DNA from: Thermoproteota archaeon
Lineage (GTDB): Archaea > Thermoproteota > Thermoprotei > Thermoproteales > Thermocladiaceae
DNA: 42,238 nt
NCBI GenBank assembly: GCA_013153275.1
Contig: JAADER010000006.1
Location: 1 to 42,238, forward strand
Reading direction: 5' to 3'
Under the pieces are notes generated by a model, which was given only the letters and a program-made list of their open reading frames with translations, did not search any database and had not been told where the DNA came from. Positions 22,254 through 40,459 of this stretch are shown in pieces. Position 1 is the stretch's first letter. Every line of letters begins with the position of its first letter. A program made the position numbers and the translations under genes.

Positions 22254-22304
22254 ATGATGAGCCAGCCCAGTATCTGAATGTATGACGAGTACGACGGGGT
22301 CTGA
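22254..22304 (+). ncRNA. C/D box sRNA
   Basis: C ATGATGA (22254-22260), 13-nt guide, D' CTGA (22274-22277), 4-nt spacer, C' ATGACGA (22282-22288), 12-nt guide, D CTGA (22301-22304). Both D boxes are canonical. It ends only 2 nt from the next sRNA, which is on the opposite strand. The 295-nt gap 22185-22478 holds these two RNAs, their promoters, and otherwise nothing I can identify. Confidence 0.87.
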
Positions 22305-30509: not shown

Positions 30510-31274
30510 GTGAGTATAGTCCAGAAGAGCATTCCATTTCCTCCCATAAAGCTTGAGAAGATAATAAAATATCTATCATATATAAATGAGAGACCTGTAA
30601 ATATAACCGAACTAAAGAACAATAAGATAGACTTTGGCAGAGGAAGAGGCGACATAACGAGATTTCTAGTACAGATAGAGCTTGTAGACGTTGAGAACAG
30701 CAAGGTCAAGCTTACCGATAGAGGTAGGACTCTCCTGAAGTTTGTGAGAGACGACAGGCCGACTTTTCTATTTAAGATTCTTTTCAATAACTACATGATA
30801 GATAAGGTCCTCACGTACAGAGTCCTAATAGATACCATAAGAGAGCTCCAGTCCTCAAATATAAATGAGCTCTACAGCATAGCTAATAGCAGACTTAGAG
30901 AGTTATCACCATCTTTATGGATTAACAAGGTTGCGTACAGATCCCTGATCTCTCTAGCGACAGATCTAGAAGTAATTGAAAGAAGGGGAGAAAGCTTAAC
31001 ATACGTTGGACAGGTTACTAAAATTAGAGAGCTAGTAACCAAGTGTGTTTTCTCTCGTGGAAGAGTAAGATATCTCGACATAGATAAGCTCTGCAACATC
31101 CTAGAACTAGACGATAGAGAGCTTCTCTGTAACATACTTAACAATTGTATAGTGCCAGTAAAGTCACCATCAGCGGTCAAGATATATAGAGTCAGAGATA
31201 TAGAGGCTGTAGTAGAGAAGGTATCTAAGCTTAGTGTTGACTTAGTGATGAAGTTCTCGAGTCCTGAAAGATGA
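30510..31274 (+). CDS. Winged-helix-type protein heading the ESCRT-like cluster
   Basis: I do not recognise this 254-residue protein. Residues 15-75 look like a winged helix: PIKLEKIIKYLSYINERPVNITEL, DITRFLVQIELVDVENSKVKLTDRGRTLLKF. A second possible winged helix ends near RRGESLTYVG (about 155-165). It is soluble, with no membrane segment. The GTG at 30510 lies about 22-26 nt after a weak TATA-like stretch (30484-30492). It precedes the MIT/ESCRT-III/Vps4-like genes on the same strand by 200 nt, with an antisense sRNA between. It may regulate the cluster or be an ESCRT-II-like winged-helix adaptor; both are inference. Confidence 0.6.
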   Translation: MSIVQKSIPFPPIKLEKIIKYLSYINERPVNITELKNNKIDFGRGRGDITRFLVQIELVDVENSKVKLTDRGRTLLKFVRDDRPTFLFKILFNNYMIDKVLTYRVLIDTIRELQSSNINELYSIANSRLRELSPSLWINKVAYRSLISLATDLEVIERRGESLTYVGQVTKIRELVTKCVFSRGRVRYLDIDKLCNILELDDRELLCNILNNCIVPVKSPSAVKIYRVRDIEAVVEKVSKLSVDLVMKFSSPER

Positions 31275-31293
31275 GGAGGGCTCGCATATCTGA

Positions 31294-31341
31294 TCAGCTT
31301 AGCCCAGCTCTTCACTAGTCCGACCTTACAAGCTTCATCAT
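31294..31341 (-). ncRNA. C/D box sRNA
   Basis: Minus strand: C ATGATGA (31335-31341), 12-nt guide, D' CGGA (31319-31322), spacer CTA, C' GTGAAGA (31309-31315), 11-nt guide, D CTGA (31294-31297). A TATA-like CTTAATAG at 31367-31374 lies about 30 nt upstream. The rest of the 201-nt gap holds a short hairpin (31349-31365) and the TATA box of the next gene. Confidence 0.86.
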
Positions 31342-31440
31342 CTATCCTCACCTAGCTGATAGGTGCCTATTAAGGTTGTCCTCATACATGTTCATGTTTC
31401 TAAGTTCGGTAATACTGTTACTCCCCTAGAGTATCAGTAG

Positions 31441-31454
31441 AAATATTTTAAACT
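31441..31454 (+). promoter_or_regulatory. TATA box of the MIT-like / ESCRT-III-like / Vps4-like operon
   Basis: AAATATTTTAAACT is centred about 27 nt upstream of ATG 31476, so the operon should start leaderless. Confidence 0.55.
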
Positions 31455-31475
31455 TGGCTAGCCTTCATAAACCTA

Positions 31476-31688
31476 ATGCTTCGAAATACTTTAATTGACG
31501 AAGTCCTGAAGTATGTGAGAGACCTGAACGCAAAGATACTTGAGGCCATAAGAAATGAAGGATACACAGACAGAGTACGAGTCGCAAGAGAGTACTTTGT
31601 AGACGCTATCCACCTCATGCTAGACAAGAAGCTTGAGGAGGCAGCTCAGAAGCTCAGAAAAGCAAGAGACCTCCTAGAAGGAATATAG
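31476..31688 (+). CDS. Small helical protein, MIT/TPR-like, function unknown
   Basis: The 70-residue protein is two or three amphipathic helices: LIDEVLKYVRDLNAKILEAI, VRVAREYFVDAIHLML and KKLEEAAQKLRKARDLLEG. The last two resemble the helical pairs of a MIT or TPR module (AREYFVDAI...LEEAAQKLRKA), like the N-terminal MIT of the ATPase two genes on. It is 10 nt upstream of the ESCRT-III-like gene and clearly in the same operon. It could be a stand-alone adaptor or regulator that competes for the MIT-binding tail; this is inference. Confidence 0.6.
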   Translation: MLRNTLIDEVLKYVRDLNAKILEAIRNEGYTDRVRVAREYFVDAIHLMLDKKLEEAAQKLRKARDLLEGI

Positions 31689-31698
31689 GTGAGAGAAC

Positions 31699-32568
31699 AT
31701 GAACGAGCTCCCCTATCTTAGACAGATCTTCAACAAGCTTGACAGACTTTACGCAGAGAGAAGGTACCTAGACCTAGAGAGATGTTATGATATACTTGTC
31801 AACAGTATTGAGAAGGCTATAAAAGATAGAAACAAGATCCTAGGAGGAAAAAGCAGAGAGGATGTTGAAAGGGAGCTTTACTCCACTGTAAGAGCTATAA
31901 GTGGAGTTATGGAAGAGATAGAGAACAGAGGTCCTCGTGGCTTGATTAAACGTCTCTCACGTTATAAGGATGTGCTCGAGAAGTCCTTGTCACGTTTAGG
32001 GTCTATCATCGACAGATTAGAGAACAAGAGAAGCACTCTTGAGGCTCAGATTAAGTCTCTAATGAGGCTAGGAAAGATGGGCGAGGCTCAGCAGTACATT
32101 CCTAGGTTAACAGTGCTGGAGAGAAACATAAAGAGCCTACGAGCATATCATGCAAAAATTGACAGGATAAAGAGCCGTATTGAGGGCGTCATAGAGACCC
32201 TATACATACTTGATGAGCTCATACCTATCCTTATTATCGAAGACCTAACGAAGATCGTCCGCGATAAGGAGGAGCTTGCTAAGTATCTAGAAGATATCAG
32301 AATGATCAAGCAGAGACTTGAGGATGCTGAGAACTTCGTGACAGAGCTTGAAGGCGTTCTCGACCTCACCAGAGGAGTACCCTCGATACAGCTGACGGAC
32401 GAGGAGATGACGACGTATAGGAGGTTGCTTGAGGAGGTTCTGCAGGAGGATCTTCCACAGACTATCAGAAAAGAGCTCGAGAACTTTAAGAGCATGCTTG
32501 AGCAGAAAGAGAGGGAGATAGAGGACTATCTAAGGAGGGAGCGTATGAAGGATGAATATAAAACGTGA
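31699..32568 (+). CDS. ESCRT-III-like (Snf7/CdvB-type) coiled-coil protein
   Basis: The 289-residue protein is wholly helical. Residues ~88-165 follow the ESCRT-III alpha1-alpha2 hairpin: a basic helix with RSTLEAQIKSLMRLGKMGEA, a Gly turn, then QQYIPRLTVLERNIKSLRAYHAKIDRIKSRIEGV (given here in two pieces of the family pattern), much as CdvB. An N-terminal MIT-like stretch (1-75) and a C-terminal segment with GVPSIQLTDEEM (about 226-237) that might serve as a MIT-interacting motif complete it. It lies 6 nt before a Vps4-like ATPase gene, its expected partner. The similarity is structural and I cannot prove homology without a profile search. Confidence 0.6.
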   Translation: MNELPYLRQIFNKLDRLYAERRYLDLERCYDILVNSIEKAIKDRNKILGGKSREDVERELYSTVRAISGVMEEIENRGPRGLIKRLSRYKDVLEKSLSRLGSIIDRLENKRSTLEAQIKSLMRLGKMGEAQQYIPRLTVLERNIKSLRAYHAKIDRIKSRIEGVIETLYILDELIPILIIEDLTKIVRDKEELAKYLEDIRMIKQRLEDAENFVTELEGVLDLTRGVPSIQLTDEEMTTYRRLLEEVLQEDLPQTIRKELENFKSMLEQKEREIEDYLRRERMKDEYKT

Positions 32569-32574
32569 TCTATC

Positions 32575-33837
32575 ATGTATCTTATAAAGCTAGGTATGGA
32601 TTACTGTGACCAGGCGCAGAGAGCATATATTAGGGGAGACTTAGAACTTGCATTGCGCCTATATGAGAAAGCGGTCGAATGTTTTAGAAAAGCAGTCACA
32701 TATACTTCAGATGCAGCAACAAGATCGGTTCTTAGCGAGAAGATTAGAGAGATAGAGGATACGATTGAGAAGCTGAGAGCTATTCTTCAAGGAGAGAACA
32801 GAGATCTGAGACCGCGTGCCGCTAGATCACCTAGAGCTACCCTGCCAGAGGTCTCAGAATCGGGTGTTATTCAGAAGGAGAAGGTATCAAGAGGTGGGGC
32901 GCGGCCGGGAACGCGTGAGGTTGAGAGTGACGGGGAGTTTGTTGGACTTGTGGAGACCTTTATCTCTCGAGCAAACGTCACTTGGGACGATATTGCGGAT
33001 CTCTCTGATGTTAAGAGGGAGCTTATGTCCATAATATTCTTCTCCCTAGCTATACCGGAGAAGCCTGTAAAGGTTGACGTTCCTAGACGTATTCTCTTTT
33101 TCGGCCCTCCAGGTACTGGAAAGACAATGATTGCGATGGCTCTATCTAACATGTTGTCTGCCACATTTTTCAATGTCCCTATCTCAGGAGTTTTGTCTAA
33201 ATATGTTGGAGATTCTCCTAAAATCATATCGACCCTCTTCAAGCTTGCACGTGAGAGAGCTCCCTCTGTCGTGTTCATGGACGAGATAGAGGCAATAGCT
33301 GTCAAGAGGGACTCAGACTTTCACCAGGTACCAGGACTTCTACAGACCTTACTGACCGAGCTTGATGGTTTTGGCTCTAAGAACCTGGACAAGCTTGTTC
33401 TCGTCATAGCTGCCACTAATAAGCCTTGGGTTCTTGACGAGGCTATACTCAGCAGATTTGACAGAAAGGTGTATATTCCCCCTCCTGACAAGTCTGCAAG
33501 AATAGAACTATTTAAACTGCATCTAGAGAGGAGAGGCTACGAGCTTGAGGGAATAACATATGAGGAGCTTGCGGACCTGACAGAGGGATATACAGGTAGA
33601 GACATAGCTAACCTATGTAGAAAAGCTATACTTAACATGCTTCAGAGAGCTAATCCAAACATTGAGGTAGTGATGAGAAGCGTTAGAAACGTTGAGGAAT
33701 TGAGAAAAGCAAAATATAGGGTTGATAGAATAACTAGAGAGGACTTTGAGAAAGCTCTCGAGGAGGTTAAACCCACAGTCTCTAAGGACGACCTTAGAAG
33801 ATATGAGGAGTTTCTCAAGAAGAGCATACTATCATGA
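32575..33837 (+). CDS. MIT-AAA ATPase, Vps4/CdvC-like
   Basis: This 420-residue ATPase has an N-terminal MIT domain (1-73, DYCDQAQRAYIRGDLELALRLYEKA with breaks), a linker with Pro/Arg/Ser (74-130), and one AAA domain starting VTWDDIADLSDV at 135. Walker A GPPGTGKT is at 177-184, Walker B FMDEIEA at 234-240, sensor-1 ATN at 280-282, and the arginine fingers in LSRFDRKVY (292-300). It ends in the Vps4-type C-terminal helix DDLRRYEEFLKK. It is the expected disassembly motor for the ESCRT-III-like protein 6 nt upstream. The pore loop and sequence differ enough from CdvC to suggest a paralogue rather than the cell-division enzyme itself. Confidence 0.85.
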   Translation: MYLIKLGMDYCDQAQRAYIRGDLELALRLYEKAVECFRKAVTYTSDAATRSVLSEKIREIEDTIEKLRAILQGENRDLRPRAARSPRATLPEVSESGVIQKEKVSRGGARPGTREVESDGEFVGLVETFISRANVTWDDIADLSDVKRELMSIIFFSLAIPEKPVKVDVPRRILFFGPPGTGKTMIAMALSNMLSATFFNVPISGVLSKYVGDSPKIISTLFKLARERAPSVVFMDEIEAIAVKRDSDFHQVPGLLQTLLTELDGFGSKNLDKLVLVIAATNKPWVLDEAILSRFDRKVYIPPPDKSARIELFKLHLERRGYELEGITYEELADLTEGYTGRDIANLCRKAILNMLQRANPNIEVVMRSVRNVEELRKAKYRVDRITREDFEKALEEVKPTVSKDDLRRYEEFLKKSILS

Positions 33838-34461
33838 TTCTCTTCCTCGAGCCCTAAGAAGAACCTCATAGACCCTGCCAATAATGTTCTCAAGATCTTC
33901 TAGAGCTACTTTCCCCTCGACAATATATCTATCCAGTCCATACATTAGGCTTCTACCAAGATCACGGTTCTGAGGATCGGCCAGTAACTGTTCGATAAAT
34001 GATCTGAAAGATTTTTCGAACTCGCTGTTTCTCGAAACTAAGAAGTCTATAATAGAGAGAAGTTTACAGAGAAGTGTAAGCAGAGCTCTGTCCTGTTTAA
34101 GCACTTTCAACTTACTTAGAAGCATGTTGTCTGAGGTCCCTCTCTCTAGCTGTCTCTCTATGTTTTCTATTTCTCGATCGATCTCAACTATCTCTCCATG
34201 AATGATATCGTACTTATAGTGAGCGTTTAAGCATGATGATAATCGTTTTAAAATTTCTATAAAATACTGATCAGAGCTCTTCATATATGCGATCGCGTAT
34301 AGTCCTAGTGCTGATAAGCAGAAAAGTATGTTCATATGGTATATAGCTGGCTGATGCTGGACTTGTGAGAACATGTTCATGATAATGTCAACTATGTTAG
34401 AATACGATCTAAGCTGATTAAGGATCTCTGTCAGATTTCTCTCAAGATCGTTACTGAACAT
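33832..34461 (-). CDS. All-helical protein of the ESCRT-like cluster, function unknown
   Basis: I do not recognise this 209-residue protein. It is helical throughout. One hydrophobic stretch (IYHMNILFCLSALGLYAIAYM, about 40-60) might associate with membrane, and a coiled coil follows (EIVEIDREIENIERQLERG, about 90-110). It overlaps the end of the ATPase gene by 6 nt in convergent orientation and lies 21 nt downstream of the FHA gene on the same strand, so it is presumably cotranscribed with it. Confidence 0.6.
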   Translation of the reverse strand: MFSNDLERNLTEILNQLRSYSNIVDIIMNMFSQVQHQPAIYHMNILFCLSALGLYAIAYMKSSDQYFIEILKRLSSCLNAHYKYDIIHGEIVEIDREIENIERQLERGTSDNMLLSKLKVLKQDRALLTLLCKLLSIIDFLVSRNSEFEKSFRSFIEQLLADPQNRDLGRSLMYGLDRYIVEGKVALEDLENIIGRVYEVLLRARGRES

Positions 34462-34482
34462 TGTCTCACTCGAACGGTAAGC

Positions 34483-35322
34483 TTACTCTATCTTTTGCAT
34501 TAGGTAGCCTTTAAGCTCGTAGAGACAGTCGAGTAATAGTCTCAGGATCCTGTCCTTCTCTCCATATCTCTGAAGTCTCTCTATCTTCACTATCTCCTCT
34601 AACATCTTCTCTATAGCCTCTATATGTTCTTTAATAAAGACGTTCTCTCCTTCTACTCTCTGAAGCTCATTATAGGACTCTTTTATCACAGATAACGTTG
34701 CAGTAGCGTTAGGTAGATCCTCATGCTTGATATGTTGCAGTAACCTGTCGATCTTAACATACAGCTGGAAATATATTGTTGCAGGTCTCTCTAAGAATGT
34801 GTTAGGAACGAACATCCTACTTTCCTCATTTTCTTCAACTACTACACTACCAAGTGATATCCTTCTGACAAAAGCATCTTCACCTCCTCTATCGGGGGAG
34901 CTCATTACGGCATGGTCCTCAAACATGTTCACAGTAAAGATCGAAGGATCGGGAATATGTATCATCACACCTCTACTGATATCGTTCCTCGAAAGCTCTA
35001 TGCTGTCTCCATGAAGCTTTACGGTCTCACCACATCCAATAGCTACCAGCGTCCCGTTTTTTGATCCTGTTCCTCTAGGGCCATGATCTCTAAGAATGAC
35101 TGTTCTGTCAGATATCACTACGAGGAGGTGCTTCCTACTCACATATATGTTCTGGTGCCCCGAAAAAACCTTGAACCTCTCTGTCTCATCGAAGAAATAT
35201 ATTCTCGGACCGTGAGGATCTATGGGGGTTCTCCCAATGAAGAGCTCGTAAACGCCGAGCTTGACAGGATTGATAGTGCAGTTCTCTCCGTTAGGTTTCC
35301 TCCAGGAAAGTATAAGATCCAT
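34483..35322 (-). CDS. FHA-domain protein
   Basis: This 279-residue protein has an N-terminal FHA domain (about 20-115): GR at 30-31, the phosphothreonine-binding SRKH at 62-65, and SKNGT at 87-91, with the phospho-peptide loop Arg/Ser residues in place. After a ~60-residue linker the C-terminal 110 residues are helical (FQLYVKIDRLLQHI onward), perhaps another MIT-like or coiled-coil module. FHA domains read phosphothreonine, so a kinase must exist elsewhere; none is in the window. The start at 35322 is 27 nt below TATTTATAAAG (35344-35354). Confidence 0.85.
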   Translation of the reverse strand: MDLILSWRKPNGENCTINPVKLGVYELFIGRTPIDPHGPRIYFFDETERFKVFSGHQNIYVSRKHLLVVISDRTVILRDHGPRGTGSKNGTLVAIGCGETVKLHGDSIELSRNDISRGVMIHIPDPSIFTVNMFEDHAVMSSPDRGGEDAFVRRISLGSVVVEENEESRMFVPNTFLERPATIYFQLYVKIDRLLQHIKHEDLPNATATLSVIKESYNELQRVEGENVFIKEHIEAIEKMLEEIVKIERLQRYGEKDRILRLLLDCLYELKGYLMQKIE

Positions 35323-35343
35323 TATCTAAGTATAAAAGTAGTC

Positions 35344-35354
35344 TATTTATAAAG
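35344..35354 (-). promoter_or_regulatory. TATA box of the FHA gene
   Basis: TATTTATAAAG (plus-strand text) is centred 27 nt from ATG 35322 on the minus strand; the transcript should be leaderless. Confidence 0.5.
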
Positions 35355-35366
35355 ATTTAACGTATC

Positions 35367-35375
35367 GCTTAAATC
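35367..35375 (+). promoter_or_regulatory. TATA box of the 647-residue coiled-coil gene
   Basis: GCTTAAATC is centred about 26 nt upstream of ATG 35397. Confidence 0.45.
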
Positions 35376-35396
35376 CTTCGTCGAAGAGTATCTATA

Positions 35397-37340
35397 ATGC
35401 CTAGTTCTTCGATATTTGTCGATATTGGTGTAAGAAGTATAAAATGTATACATTATGGAGAAGAATGTGGTAAAATAGTATCTAAAGGTCTTGTAAATCT
35501 CAGAAGAGAGCCAACAACAACACTCAAGCGATACATAGATACGGTACTCTCATCGTTAGAGAGCTTGGAGAGCGAGTGTCAGGATATAGATAGCGAGACA
35601 TATGAGAAAGAGCTTGGAAAATGTAGATACGCTCTTCTCCTGTTAACGCTTGCTCTCGAGCATCAAGGAGAAGTTCTGCCGCCAGAGCTCAGAGGAAGGT
35701 TCACGGAGCTTGAGAAGAAGATTGCTATAGAGGTAGAGTCCTGCTCTATTCCTGAAGATCCTAAGAAGCTCGCACAGCTGTTTACTGCTGGTAGAAAAGA
35801 TGTGTTAGAGATTTATAGAAAGATCATAGATAGATCATATACGGATATTATTGAGATATTGAGAAAAAGTTCTGAGAGAGGAGAGATAGATAGATATCTT
35901 GCAAGATATATGATGAGTGTCCTAGAGGGTAGACTCCGCATACTTGCGCAGTCTCTCTCCGAGGTTCTGTTGAGCAATCCAGTCTATATCTATAGATTGT
36001 TTAAAGATTATGAGGAGCTGGTTCTGAGAGCCTCAGAGGTTAGGAGAAGCGTTGAGGAGGATCTTGAGAACAGGATAATGAGAGAGCTTGCTAGTCTCAT
36101 TGAGAAGGTGGAGGCTCTAGATGTCAAGTACAGTAGTCTCATGGATAGGTTATCTAGAGTCGTTGTAGAAGGGGGTGATGTTTCAATAGGTGAGCTTAAA
36201 CGTACTATATCTGAGTTAAGTGAAGAAAATAGGAGGTTAATGGAGAAGGTTGAGAACCTTACTAGAGAGCTTGAGAGGAAGAACAGGGAGATCGAAAAAT
36301 TGAAAGAGGAGATAGGTAAGTACATCAGAGAGGTAAGAGACGAGATCACGAGAAAGACTCTCGAGACCCAGCTAGAGTCTCTGAGAACGCTCTCACGCAA
36401 GATAAGAATGGTCTCGAGAAAGCTCAGAAAGCAACGTGAGGCTCTTCAGATACGGGAAGAGGCTGTTAAGGAAAGTGTAAGAGATATCGATGAGGTAAGT
36501 AGAGAGGAGAGAAGAACCATATCGGCGAGTAAGGTGCAGGCATATTATCTAGGAACGATACGTAGAATATGTGAGAAAGCTGACTCCATACCTAGGGAGA
36601 CTATTCTACGACTGCTCAACTGCAGGAGATGGTCCATACTTAAAGTGTCGAAAGCTGTAAAGTGCTCTCCAGAGGAGTCGTCAAGTAAGATCTATTATAG
36701 AGTTCTCTACAAGTTCAGTGTAGCTATACCTCACAGGGTTCTTATGCTCGACATAGTCTACTACGCCCGTAAAGATAGGATAGTAAAGCTCGGATATGAT
36801 GACCTACCATTAACTCCCGTTGAAGTTAATGACCTCATGATGAACGTGTTAAGCGAGAACGAGCTTGAGGACAAGAAGAACATGCTCTACATACTCTTCA
36901 TAGCATCCCCAACAGGATTCTCAAGAAAACTGATAGAGCATGTATGCTCTAGTGATCCAAGGATGTTGATCTCGTCCAGGAACCTCATAGTCATCCTATA
37001 TGACGTAGTCGAGGGCAGATACTACTATAACCATGCGGATCCAAGAGCAGAAGAGATTGTTAAAGTGCTGGAGCCTATCATGGAACCTGAGAAGAGAAGG
37101 ATCATTAGAGACATTGTTCTATCAAGGAAGAATGAGCTTGTTAGGAGCGGTAAAAGAGAGCTTCCTCCTTACCTAACATATGTGACATTGGACGAGATCC
37201 TAGAGGAGGCTTCATCTAAGCTTGGCAGTGTTAATAGTTCGTTAGTGTTGGATGTATTTAGAGAGCTTGAGAACGAGACGTATGGCTCAGTCTGTGTTAG
37301 TCCTAGAAGAGGGATAGTGTTCTTCAGGTTCAGTAGATGA
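35397..37340 (+). CDS. Large coiled-coil protein with winged-helix-like C-terminus
   Basis: The 647-residue protein begins SIFVDIGVRSIKCIHYGEECG, which resembles the phosphate-1 strand of FtsA/PilM/actin-like proteins, but no full ASKHA fold follows. Residues ~15-215 are helical. A long coiled coil spans about 215-375 (ISELSEENRRLMEKVENLTREL and so on), with the charged-heptad pattern of a rod. The C-terminal 250 residues look globular and contain possible winged helices (LKVSKAVKCSPEESSSKIYYRVL, EARS-like repeats not seen). It is the fourth protein-coding unit of the cluster and could be a scaffold or a filament. No family is recognised. Confidence 0.65.
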   Translation: MPSSSIFVDIGVRSIKCIHYGEECGKIVSKGLVNLRREPTTTLKRYIDTVLSSLESLESECQDIDSETYEKELGKCRYALLLLTLALEHQGEVLPPELRGRFTELEKKIAIEVESCSIPEDPKKLAQLFTAGRKDVLEIYRKIIDRSYTDIIEILRKSSERGEIDRYLARYMMSVLEGRLRILAQSLSEVLLSNPVYIYRLFKDYEELVLRASEVRRSVEEDLENRIMRELASLIEKVEALDVKYSSLMDRLSRVVVEGGDVSIGELKRTISELSEENRRLMEKVENLTRELERKNREIEKLKEEIGKYIREVRDEITRKTLETQLESLRTLSRKIRMVSRKLRKQREALQIREEAVKESVRDIDEVSREERRTISASKVQAYYLGTIRRICEKADSIPRETILRLLNCRRWSILKVSKAVKCSPEESSSKIYYRVLYKFSVAIPHRVLMLDIVYYARKDRIVKLGYDDLPLTPVEVNDLMMNVLSENELEDKKNMLYILFIASPTGFSRKLIEHVCSSDPRMLISSRNLIVILYDVVEGRYYYNHADPRAEEIVKVLEPIMEPEKRRIIRDIVLSRKNELVRSGKRELPPYLTYVTLDEILEEASSKLGSVNSSLVLDVFRELENETYGSVCVSPRRGIVFFRFSR

Positions 37341-37343
37341 GTC

Positions 37344-37393
37344 TCAGTTGGGTAGAGGTGTCCTCACTGGTCAGTTGAGGACCACGTCATCAC
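37344..37393 (-). ncRNA. C/D box sRNA
   Basis: Minus strand: C GTGATGA (37387-37393), 12-nt guide, D' CTGA (37371-37374), spacer CCA, C' GTGAGGA (37361-37367), 13-nt guide, D CTGA (37344-37347). Both D boxes are canonical. A TATA-like CTAAAAATAG at 37421-37430 lies about 30 nt upstream. It begins 4 nt after the stop of the convergent coiled-coil gene. Confidence 0.87.
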
Positions 37394-40381: not shown

Positions 40382-40459
40382 GCCGCCGTAGCTCAGCCTG
40401 GTTGGAGCGGCGGGCTGTTAACCCGTAGGTCCCGGGTTCAAATCCCGGCGGCGGCGCCA
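40382..40459 (+). tRNA. tRNA-Asn (anticodon GTT), CCA encoded
   Basis: The cloverleaf is complete: acceptor GCCGCCG with CGGCGGC, D arm around GCTCAGCCTGGTTGGAGC, anticodon stem GCGGG/CCCGT with loop CTGTTAA (anticodon GTT), and T arm CCGGGTTCAAATCCCGG. Discriminator G is followed by an encoded CCA (40457-40459). No intron is present. The G+C richness of the stems is typical of a hyperthermophile. The 112-nt gap before glnK (40460-40571) holds no feature I recognise. Confidence 0.98.

Follow-up and report, generated by a model that had tools for sequence, protein, structure and literature searches.

An FHA-bearing ESCRT gene block outside the CdvC lineage, probably an accessory system, on a chromosomal island of a Thermoproteales archaeon

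A compact block of genes resembling an archaeal ESCRT (endosomal sorting complexes required for transport) system lies at positions 31476–37340 of a 42,238-nucleotide stretch of archaeal DNA (contig JAADER010000006.1, positions 1 to 42,238, of assembly GCA_013153275.1; hereafter the window), as delimited by gene finding and family searches. It encodes a Vps4-type ATPase, a likely ESCRT-III-like protein, a forkhead-associated (FHA) protein and several helical or coiled-coil partners (Table 1). The source genome (G000) is a 1.39 Mb draft, 88.6% complete, from the family Thermocladiaceae of the order Thermoproteales. Its genus mates include two sister species, G007 and G008, the first of which is a second carrier of the block. 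The contig genuinely belongs to this genus, because the seryl-tRNA synthetase (SerRS) encoded on it is 90, 88, and 79% identical to those of three genus mates and 58–67% identical, in full-length matches, to those of other genera, and because the flanking genes are syntenic; misbinning is thus ruled out.

Table 1. Genes of the block and extent of the island, in window coordinates
Feature	Position	Strand	Basis
ESCRT island, ~6.0 kb	31351..37343	.	Flank alignment to G007 and G008; boundaries accurate to within a few bases
Helical protein of 70 aa, encoded first in the block; possibly MIT-like	31476..31688	+	83-aa G007 homologue in the same place (Z 9.3); weak MIT profile match
Likely ESCRT-III-like protein, 289 aa; additional helices at the N terminus, predicted long hairpin 78–179, further helices	31699..32568	+	Weak Snf7, profile and fold matches
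Vps4-type ATPase, 420 aa; MIT, AAA, lid, Vps4 C-terminal helix	32575..33837	+	Pfam, motifs, trees
hel209, helical protein, 209 aa	33832..34461	-	No Pfam family
FHA protein, 279 aa, helical C-terminal half	34483..35322	-	Pfam score and binding motifs
Protein of 647 aa with a helical N-terminal part, a coiled coil, an alpha/beta domain, and a winged helix at the C terminus	35397..37340	+	Homology to archaeal ESCRT partners; AlphaFold2 model of the C-terminal part

The ATPase has the complete makeup of a Vps4 protein. Pfam recognises its AAA (1.7e-35), AAA_lid_3 (7.7e-11), and Vps4_C (6.5e-10) domains, while the MIT domain is borderline, just missing the cut-off of 30 bits in the Pfam scan, with 29.9, and reaching 32 bits, above the cut-off, in another search. 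The catalytic motifs are all intact: Walker A (GPPGTGK177), Walker B (FMDE234), ATN280, SRF293, and the pore loop KYVG209; MIT, AAA, and the Vps4 C-terminal domain are thus accompanied by both Walker motifs and the arginine finger. In a phylogenetic tree, the window and G007 ATPases are sisters (100/99) within a non-CdvC clade of 11 proteins (100/99), which also includes Vps4 of Thermococcus and two haloarchaeal plasmid proteins, and the CdvC proteins form the other side. Thermococcales are represented in this tree by one sequence and haloarchaea by two, and an AAA protein of genome G083 was left out as too divergent. An earlier Vps4 tree likewise puts the window ATPase outside CdvC, so that its identity as a canonical CdvC is rejected by both. 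The nearest Vps4 proteins elsewhere in the phylum occur in G224, by inference a probable Sulfolobaceae genome, and in four genomes of one family (G400, G097, G055, and G358; 45–57% identical). This family is probably Acidilobaceae, since a locus assigned by name to Acidilobaceae falls within its CdvC proteins, and one of its genomes is matched by a locus with a Desulfurococcales name.

The gene that ends 6 nt upstream of the Vps4 gene likely, though not provenly, encodes an ESCRT-III-like protein. Against the Pfam Snf7 model, it scores 20.7 bits (E 3.5e-4), below the curated cut-off of 27.3, and in a search of its own genome 21.9 bits (E 8.6e-5); the control Sulfolobus acidocaldarius, which bears true CdvB proteins, likewise stays below the Snf7 cut-off. 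A profile built from the protein and its relative matches the solved CdvB2 at E 0.012, collinear across 157 residues, and profile–profile comparison with CdvB gives a probability of 17%. An AlphaFold2 model (two-sequence input, mean confidence pLDDT 72) predicts a long hairpin at residues 78–179, and a Foldseek search with this model places CdvB2, CdvB, and Ist1 among the best natural folds in the Protein Data Bank (PDB; probability ~0.75–1.0, E ~0.06 or more), CdvB2 itself at probability 1.0 and E 0.06. The G007 homologue, which has the same gene order around it, is 24–32% identical. For the 70-residue protein at the head of the block, no Pfam MIT match was obtained, and a profile match to MIT covers a single hairpin (34 columns, probability 19%), so it is only possibly MIT-like; it is 30–32% identical to its 83-residue counterpart in G007.

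The FHA domain scores 19.5 bits in Pfam against a cut-off of 20.7, several homologues exceed that cut-off, and the phosphothreonine-binding motifs (GR30, SRKH62, and NGT89) are all present. The window and G007 FHA proteins are 30–33% identical, and an FHA-type gene directly follows Vps4 in all four Acidilobaceae-like genomes, with the motifs degenerate in two of them. In G007, the FHA gene stands beside a gene for a membrane-anchored Ser/Thr kinase. A second FHA–kinase pair with the same neighbours occurs in the G007 bin (L208, G007:C56, 3034–5085) and is probably a strain variant of the first (L025), the FHA proteins being 56%, the kinases 77%, and a neighbour 91% identical. Within the order, full-length relatives of this kinase were found in G000 and G007 only; the two are 52% identical, like the Vps4 proteins, while their neighbours are 69–89% identical, as if the kinase changed together with the ESCRT genes. 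Kinases are also found in the neighbourhoods of the Thermococcus, Acidilobaceae-like, and G224 ESCRT loci. Because the FHA motifs are complete and a kinase gene adjoins the FHA gene in G007, with two such pairs in that bin, a phospho-peptide input to the ESCRT system is likely. The helical protein hel209, encoded next to the FHA gene, matches no Pfam family; its place in G007 is occupied by a gene for a 137-residue helical protein (hel137), and homology of the two was rejected (Z -0.3).

The 647-residue protein is homologous to the coiled-coil/winged-helix partners of two other archaeal ESCRT loci, L019 and L022 (tblastn E 9e-15 and 3e-14), and across the phylum its homologues include the coiled-coil partners in the Acidilobaceae-like loci and G224. 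A partner hidden Markov model also matches a gene of a Thermococcus plasmid locus at 7e-49. By sequence, it is the counterpart of the coiled-coil/winged-helix ESCRT partner of arCOG09748 type, arCOG numbers being given here by description and not by an arCOG search. A G007 protein, hel379, was considered as a degenerate copy of it, which is only hinted at (hhalign probability 13%, Z 2.7). G097 has a second coiled-coil/winged-helix locus (L190, G097:C7, 9815–15539), which also contains ESCRT-III-like and FHA genes together with a weak match to a kinase. Further homologues at L188 (G083), L189 (G185), L192, and L193, some with kinases or ankyrin repeats, lack a close Vps4 of the window group and may belong to further divergent ESCRT-like or other systems. 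Thus, the initial annotation of the locus, made from sequence alone, holds for the ATPase, the FHA protein, and the coiled-coil partner, and likely for the ESCRT-III-like protein; the 70-residue protein is only possibly MIT-like.

The block is inserted in an otherwise conserved gene neighbourhood. In both G007 and G008, an intact run comprises the genes for reverse gyrase, SerRS, a small ribosomal-type protein, an RNA methyltransferase, a winged-helix protein, cysteinyl-tRNA synthetase (CysRS), a protein resembling PAPS (3′-phosphoadenosine 5′-phosphosulfate) reductase, PII, and an ammonium transporter. The winged-helix and CysRS genes are separated there by only ~205–210 bp, and in G000 by ~6 kb (about 31350–37343). 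The winged-helix gene at 30510–31274, initially counted as a member of the cluster, is therefore a neighbour and not a part of it, because it lies beside CysRS in sisters that have no cluster at that site. In G007, the block sits elsewhere and runs from the gene for the 83-residue protein through those for the ESCRT-III-like protein and Vps4 to two helical-protein genes on the opposite strand and the FHA gene, with a small winged-helix gene on one side and the membrane-anchored kinase gene on the other; at the corresponding site of G000, the winged-helix and kinase genes have no block between them. The block thus occupies different sites in two species of one genus, and relocation and separate gains fit this arrangement alike. 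The Vps4 proteins of the two carriers are 52% identical, against 90% for SerRS, 84% for CysRS, and 86% for reverse gyrase. Insertion at a tRNA gene was rejected, as no tRNA was found at the junctions and the sole one detected, at 40382, is distant from them; no terminal repeats stood out at the island.

Three elements resembling C/D-box small RNAs (sRNAs), kept in G007, flank the island at 31245–31293 (+), 31294–31341 (-), and 37344–37393 (-), so that the island lies between the second and the third. Rfam C/D models match them below the gathering score. Further matches to the motif pattern, possibly chance ones, occur at 22254 (+), 21760 (-), and 29476 (-).

Among 45 genomes of Thermoproteales, including G000 and G007, only these two were found to contain a credible MIT-AAA gene or one of the ESCRT-III-like type. 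A profile search of the genome contigs with the Vps4 alignment returned, among the matches listed, mostly VAT/Cdc48-type proteins and is not usable as a census. According to Makarova et al. (2024, PMC10936438), both FtsZ and ESCRT genes were formerly thought to be missing from Thermoproteales, and CdvA-like proteins alone have since been identified in them. G000, which is 88.6% complete, yielded no canonical cdvA, cdvB, or cdvC in searches whose Pfam CdvA model misses the strongly diverged CdvA reported for Thermoproteales. In all three crenarchaea checked (G400, G055, and G224), a canonical CdvC coexists with an ESCRT system of this kind, and in G224 CdvA-like, CdvB-like, and CdvC genes stand in a row (locus L187). 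By the trees, the system is distinct from canonical CdvABC, in line with the initial annotation. Its being a “second” one holds for the two Acidilobaceae-like genomes and G224 and is not supported for G000. Related loci occur in G007, the Acidilobaceae-like genomes, and G224.

Four kinds of known or related systems invite comparison. The “Main” clade set, as described in the same paper, comprises Vps4, ESCRT-III, arCOG09748, arCOG08177, and a Ser/Thr kinase and phosphatase. A complete set of this type is carried by a 49-kb plasmid of Thermococcus peptonophilus (L210, NZ_CP014751.1, 3428–11331) in the order Cas2-like protein, coiled-coil/winged-helix protein, two ESCRT-III proteins, Ser/Thr kinase, Vps4, and PP2C phosphatase. 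The window block shares with it a Vps4 outside CdvC that groups with the Thermococcus protein, a homologous coiled-coil/winged-helix partner, and, in the window's relatives, an associated membrane kinase. It differs in having an FHA protein and neither a Cas2-like gene nor a phosphatase, in a longer ESCRT-III-like protein with extra N-terminal helices, and in its Thermoproteales host. The Halo_FHA systems of haloarchaea combine Vps4 and ESCRT-III with an FHA protein (arCOG13166) that has a CdvA-like C-terminal domain, and recognition of phosphorylated proteins as cargo has been proposed (PMC10936438). By description, they resemble the window block in an FHA protein with a helical C-terminal half near Vps4/ESCRT-III and in the link to a kinase, but they are known from haloarchaea. 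The Acidilobaceae-like and G224 loci have the nearest Vps4 outside the genus and the coiled-coil/winged-helix partner, with the FHA gene after Vps4 in the four, whereas most of them possess Cas2-like and ~190-residue genes and a shorter ESCRT-III. Finally, CdvABC likewise combines ESCRT-III with an MIT-bearing Vps4, and the window ESCRT-III model lies near CdvB2 and CdvB among natural PDB chains; the window ATPase, however, falls outside the CdvC clade, cdvA was not found, FHA and coiled-coil/winged-helix genes are added, and systems of the window's kind exist side by side with CdvC in other genomes.

Taken together, the block is probably an accessory, phosphorylation-controlled ESCRT system, an FHA-carrying version of the “Main” type, serving vesicles or cargo and not CdvABC-type division. 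The accessory character is supported by its presence in two of 45 genomes, by the site that is empty in G007 and G008, and by the G007-type site that is empty in G000. In such a system, the membrane-anchored kinase would phosphorylate either itself or another protein, one of the membrane or of the cargo, and the FHA protein would bind the resulting phosphothreonine. The FHA protein and the coiled-coil/winged-helix protein might then recruit ESCRT-III to the marked membrane patch, where its polymerisation would deform or cut the membrane, and the Vps4 ATPase would take the polymer apart and recycle ESCRT-III. The outcome would most likely be vesicle budding or cargo sorting, not routine cell division. 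Several observations weigh against this interpretation. The ESCRT-III identity comes from weak scores, the best search reaching only about E 1e-4; no recognisable relative of hel209 was found; and no gene for the Cas2-like (arCOG08177-type) partner, by which “Main” systems are defined, was found among the open reading frames of the window at 22–42 kb or in the G007 locus. The kinase is unlinked to the block in G000, its orthologue lying on another contig, so that the tie is made through relatives only, and absence of the block in the remaining three genus members, which are 69–87% complete, could partly reflect missing sequence.

The strongest rival is a cell-division machine: in a lineage without detectable canonical Cdv, cytokinesis would be performed or aided by an acquired ESCRT cluster that answers to the kinase and the FHA protein. 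It draws on the lack of canonical cdvA, cdvB, and cdvC in G000 and on the division of other crenarchaea by ESCRT-III/Vps4 (PMC10936438). We consider it unlikely: the block is missing from all 43 remaining Thermoproteales genomes, among them complete ones of Vulcanisaeta- and Pyrobaculum-like organisms whose cells evidently divide; the G000 site is empty in two genus mates; and the genes of the block diverge far faster than the housekeeping neighbours (Vps4 and ESCRT-III against SerRS, with the identities given above). Nearly all relatives manage division without the block, and other carriers keep CdvABC, which makes division an improbable main role. “Checkpoint” control of division is not supported, and the patchy presence argues against it; the phosphothreonine input suggested initially is likely, as set out above.

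Less probable still is a membrane system that is antiviral or otherwise tied to viruses; the island would then act against virus budding or entry or would have been taken from a mobile element. Patchy occurrence, the moved site, fast divergence, the related system on the Thermococcus plasmid, and the resemblance of the kinase domains to those in PADLOC defence families speak for it. However, the PADLOC matches are only general AAA, kinase, and coiled-coil ones, so that a defence system was rejected, and the block contains no nuclease, toxin, or other effector, nor were defence neighbours seen at the site. Viral origin of the window copy was rejected as well, since viral contigs hold no relatives of the coiled-coil protein and, together with phages, give only distant AAA matches.

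Another quite improbable alternative makes the ESCRT-III-like protein an unrelated coiled-coil adaptor and the ATPase a remodeller of protein complexes, not membranes. The Snf7 score below the cut-off, the fold-search E-value of ~0.06, and the low profile–profile probability to CdvB would allow it, but the gene immediately precedes Vps4, an arrangement shared with other ESCRT loci, the ATPase bears MIT, and two independent methods rank CdvB2 with the top natural matches. A decayed or neutral remnant, with the ESCRT-III-like and coiled-coil genes under relaxed selection as the low identity between the two carriers and the barely recognisable G007 partner gene might suggest, is the least credible of all, given that every frame is open and full length, the catalytic and FHA motifs are intact, and the gene order is the same in two species.

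Beyond the accessory role favoured here, it may tentatively be proposed that archaea of any division mode, Thermoproteales included, gain regulated membrane remodelling from an ESCRT module that moves horizontally and is controlled by kinase and FHA protein; its forms would then include the Thermococcus plasmid, without FHA there, and the chromosomal island in G000.

The general type of neighbourhood has already been described in other archaea (PMC10936438), and, compared with the descriptions in that paper, what is probably new is the FHA-bearing variant of a known ESCRT kind and Thermoproteales as its host order. TACK archaea have been proposed there to be reduced to a core ESCRT system. Richer ESCRT systems, several of them with FHA and kinase parts, exist within Thermoproteota apart from CdvABC. 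Carriers that also possess CdvABC, together with closely related non-carriers that divide, provide a natural test separating division from vesicle or cargo functions of ESCRT, and the same organisms offer a test of whether phosphorylation gates archaeal ESCRT.

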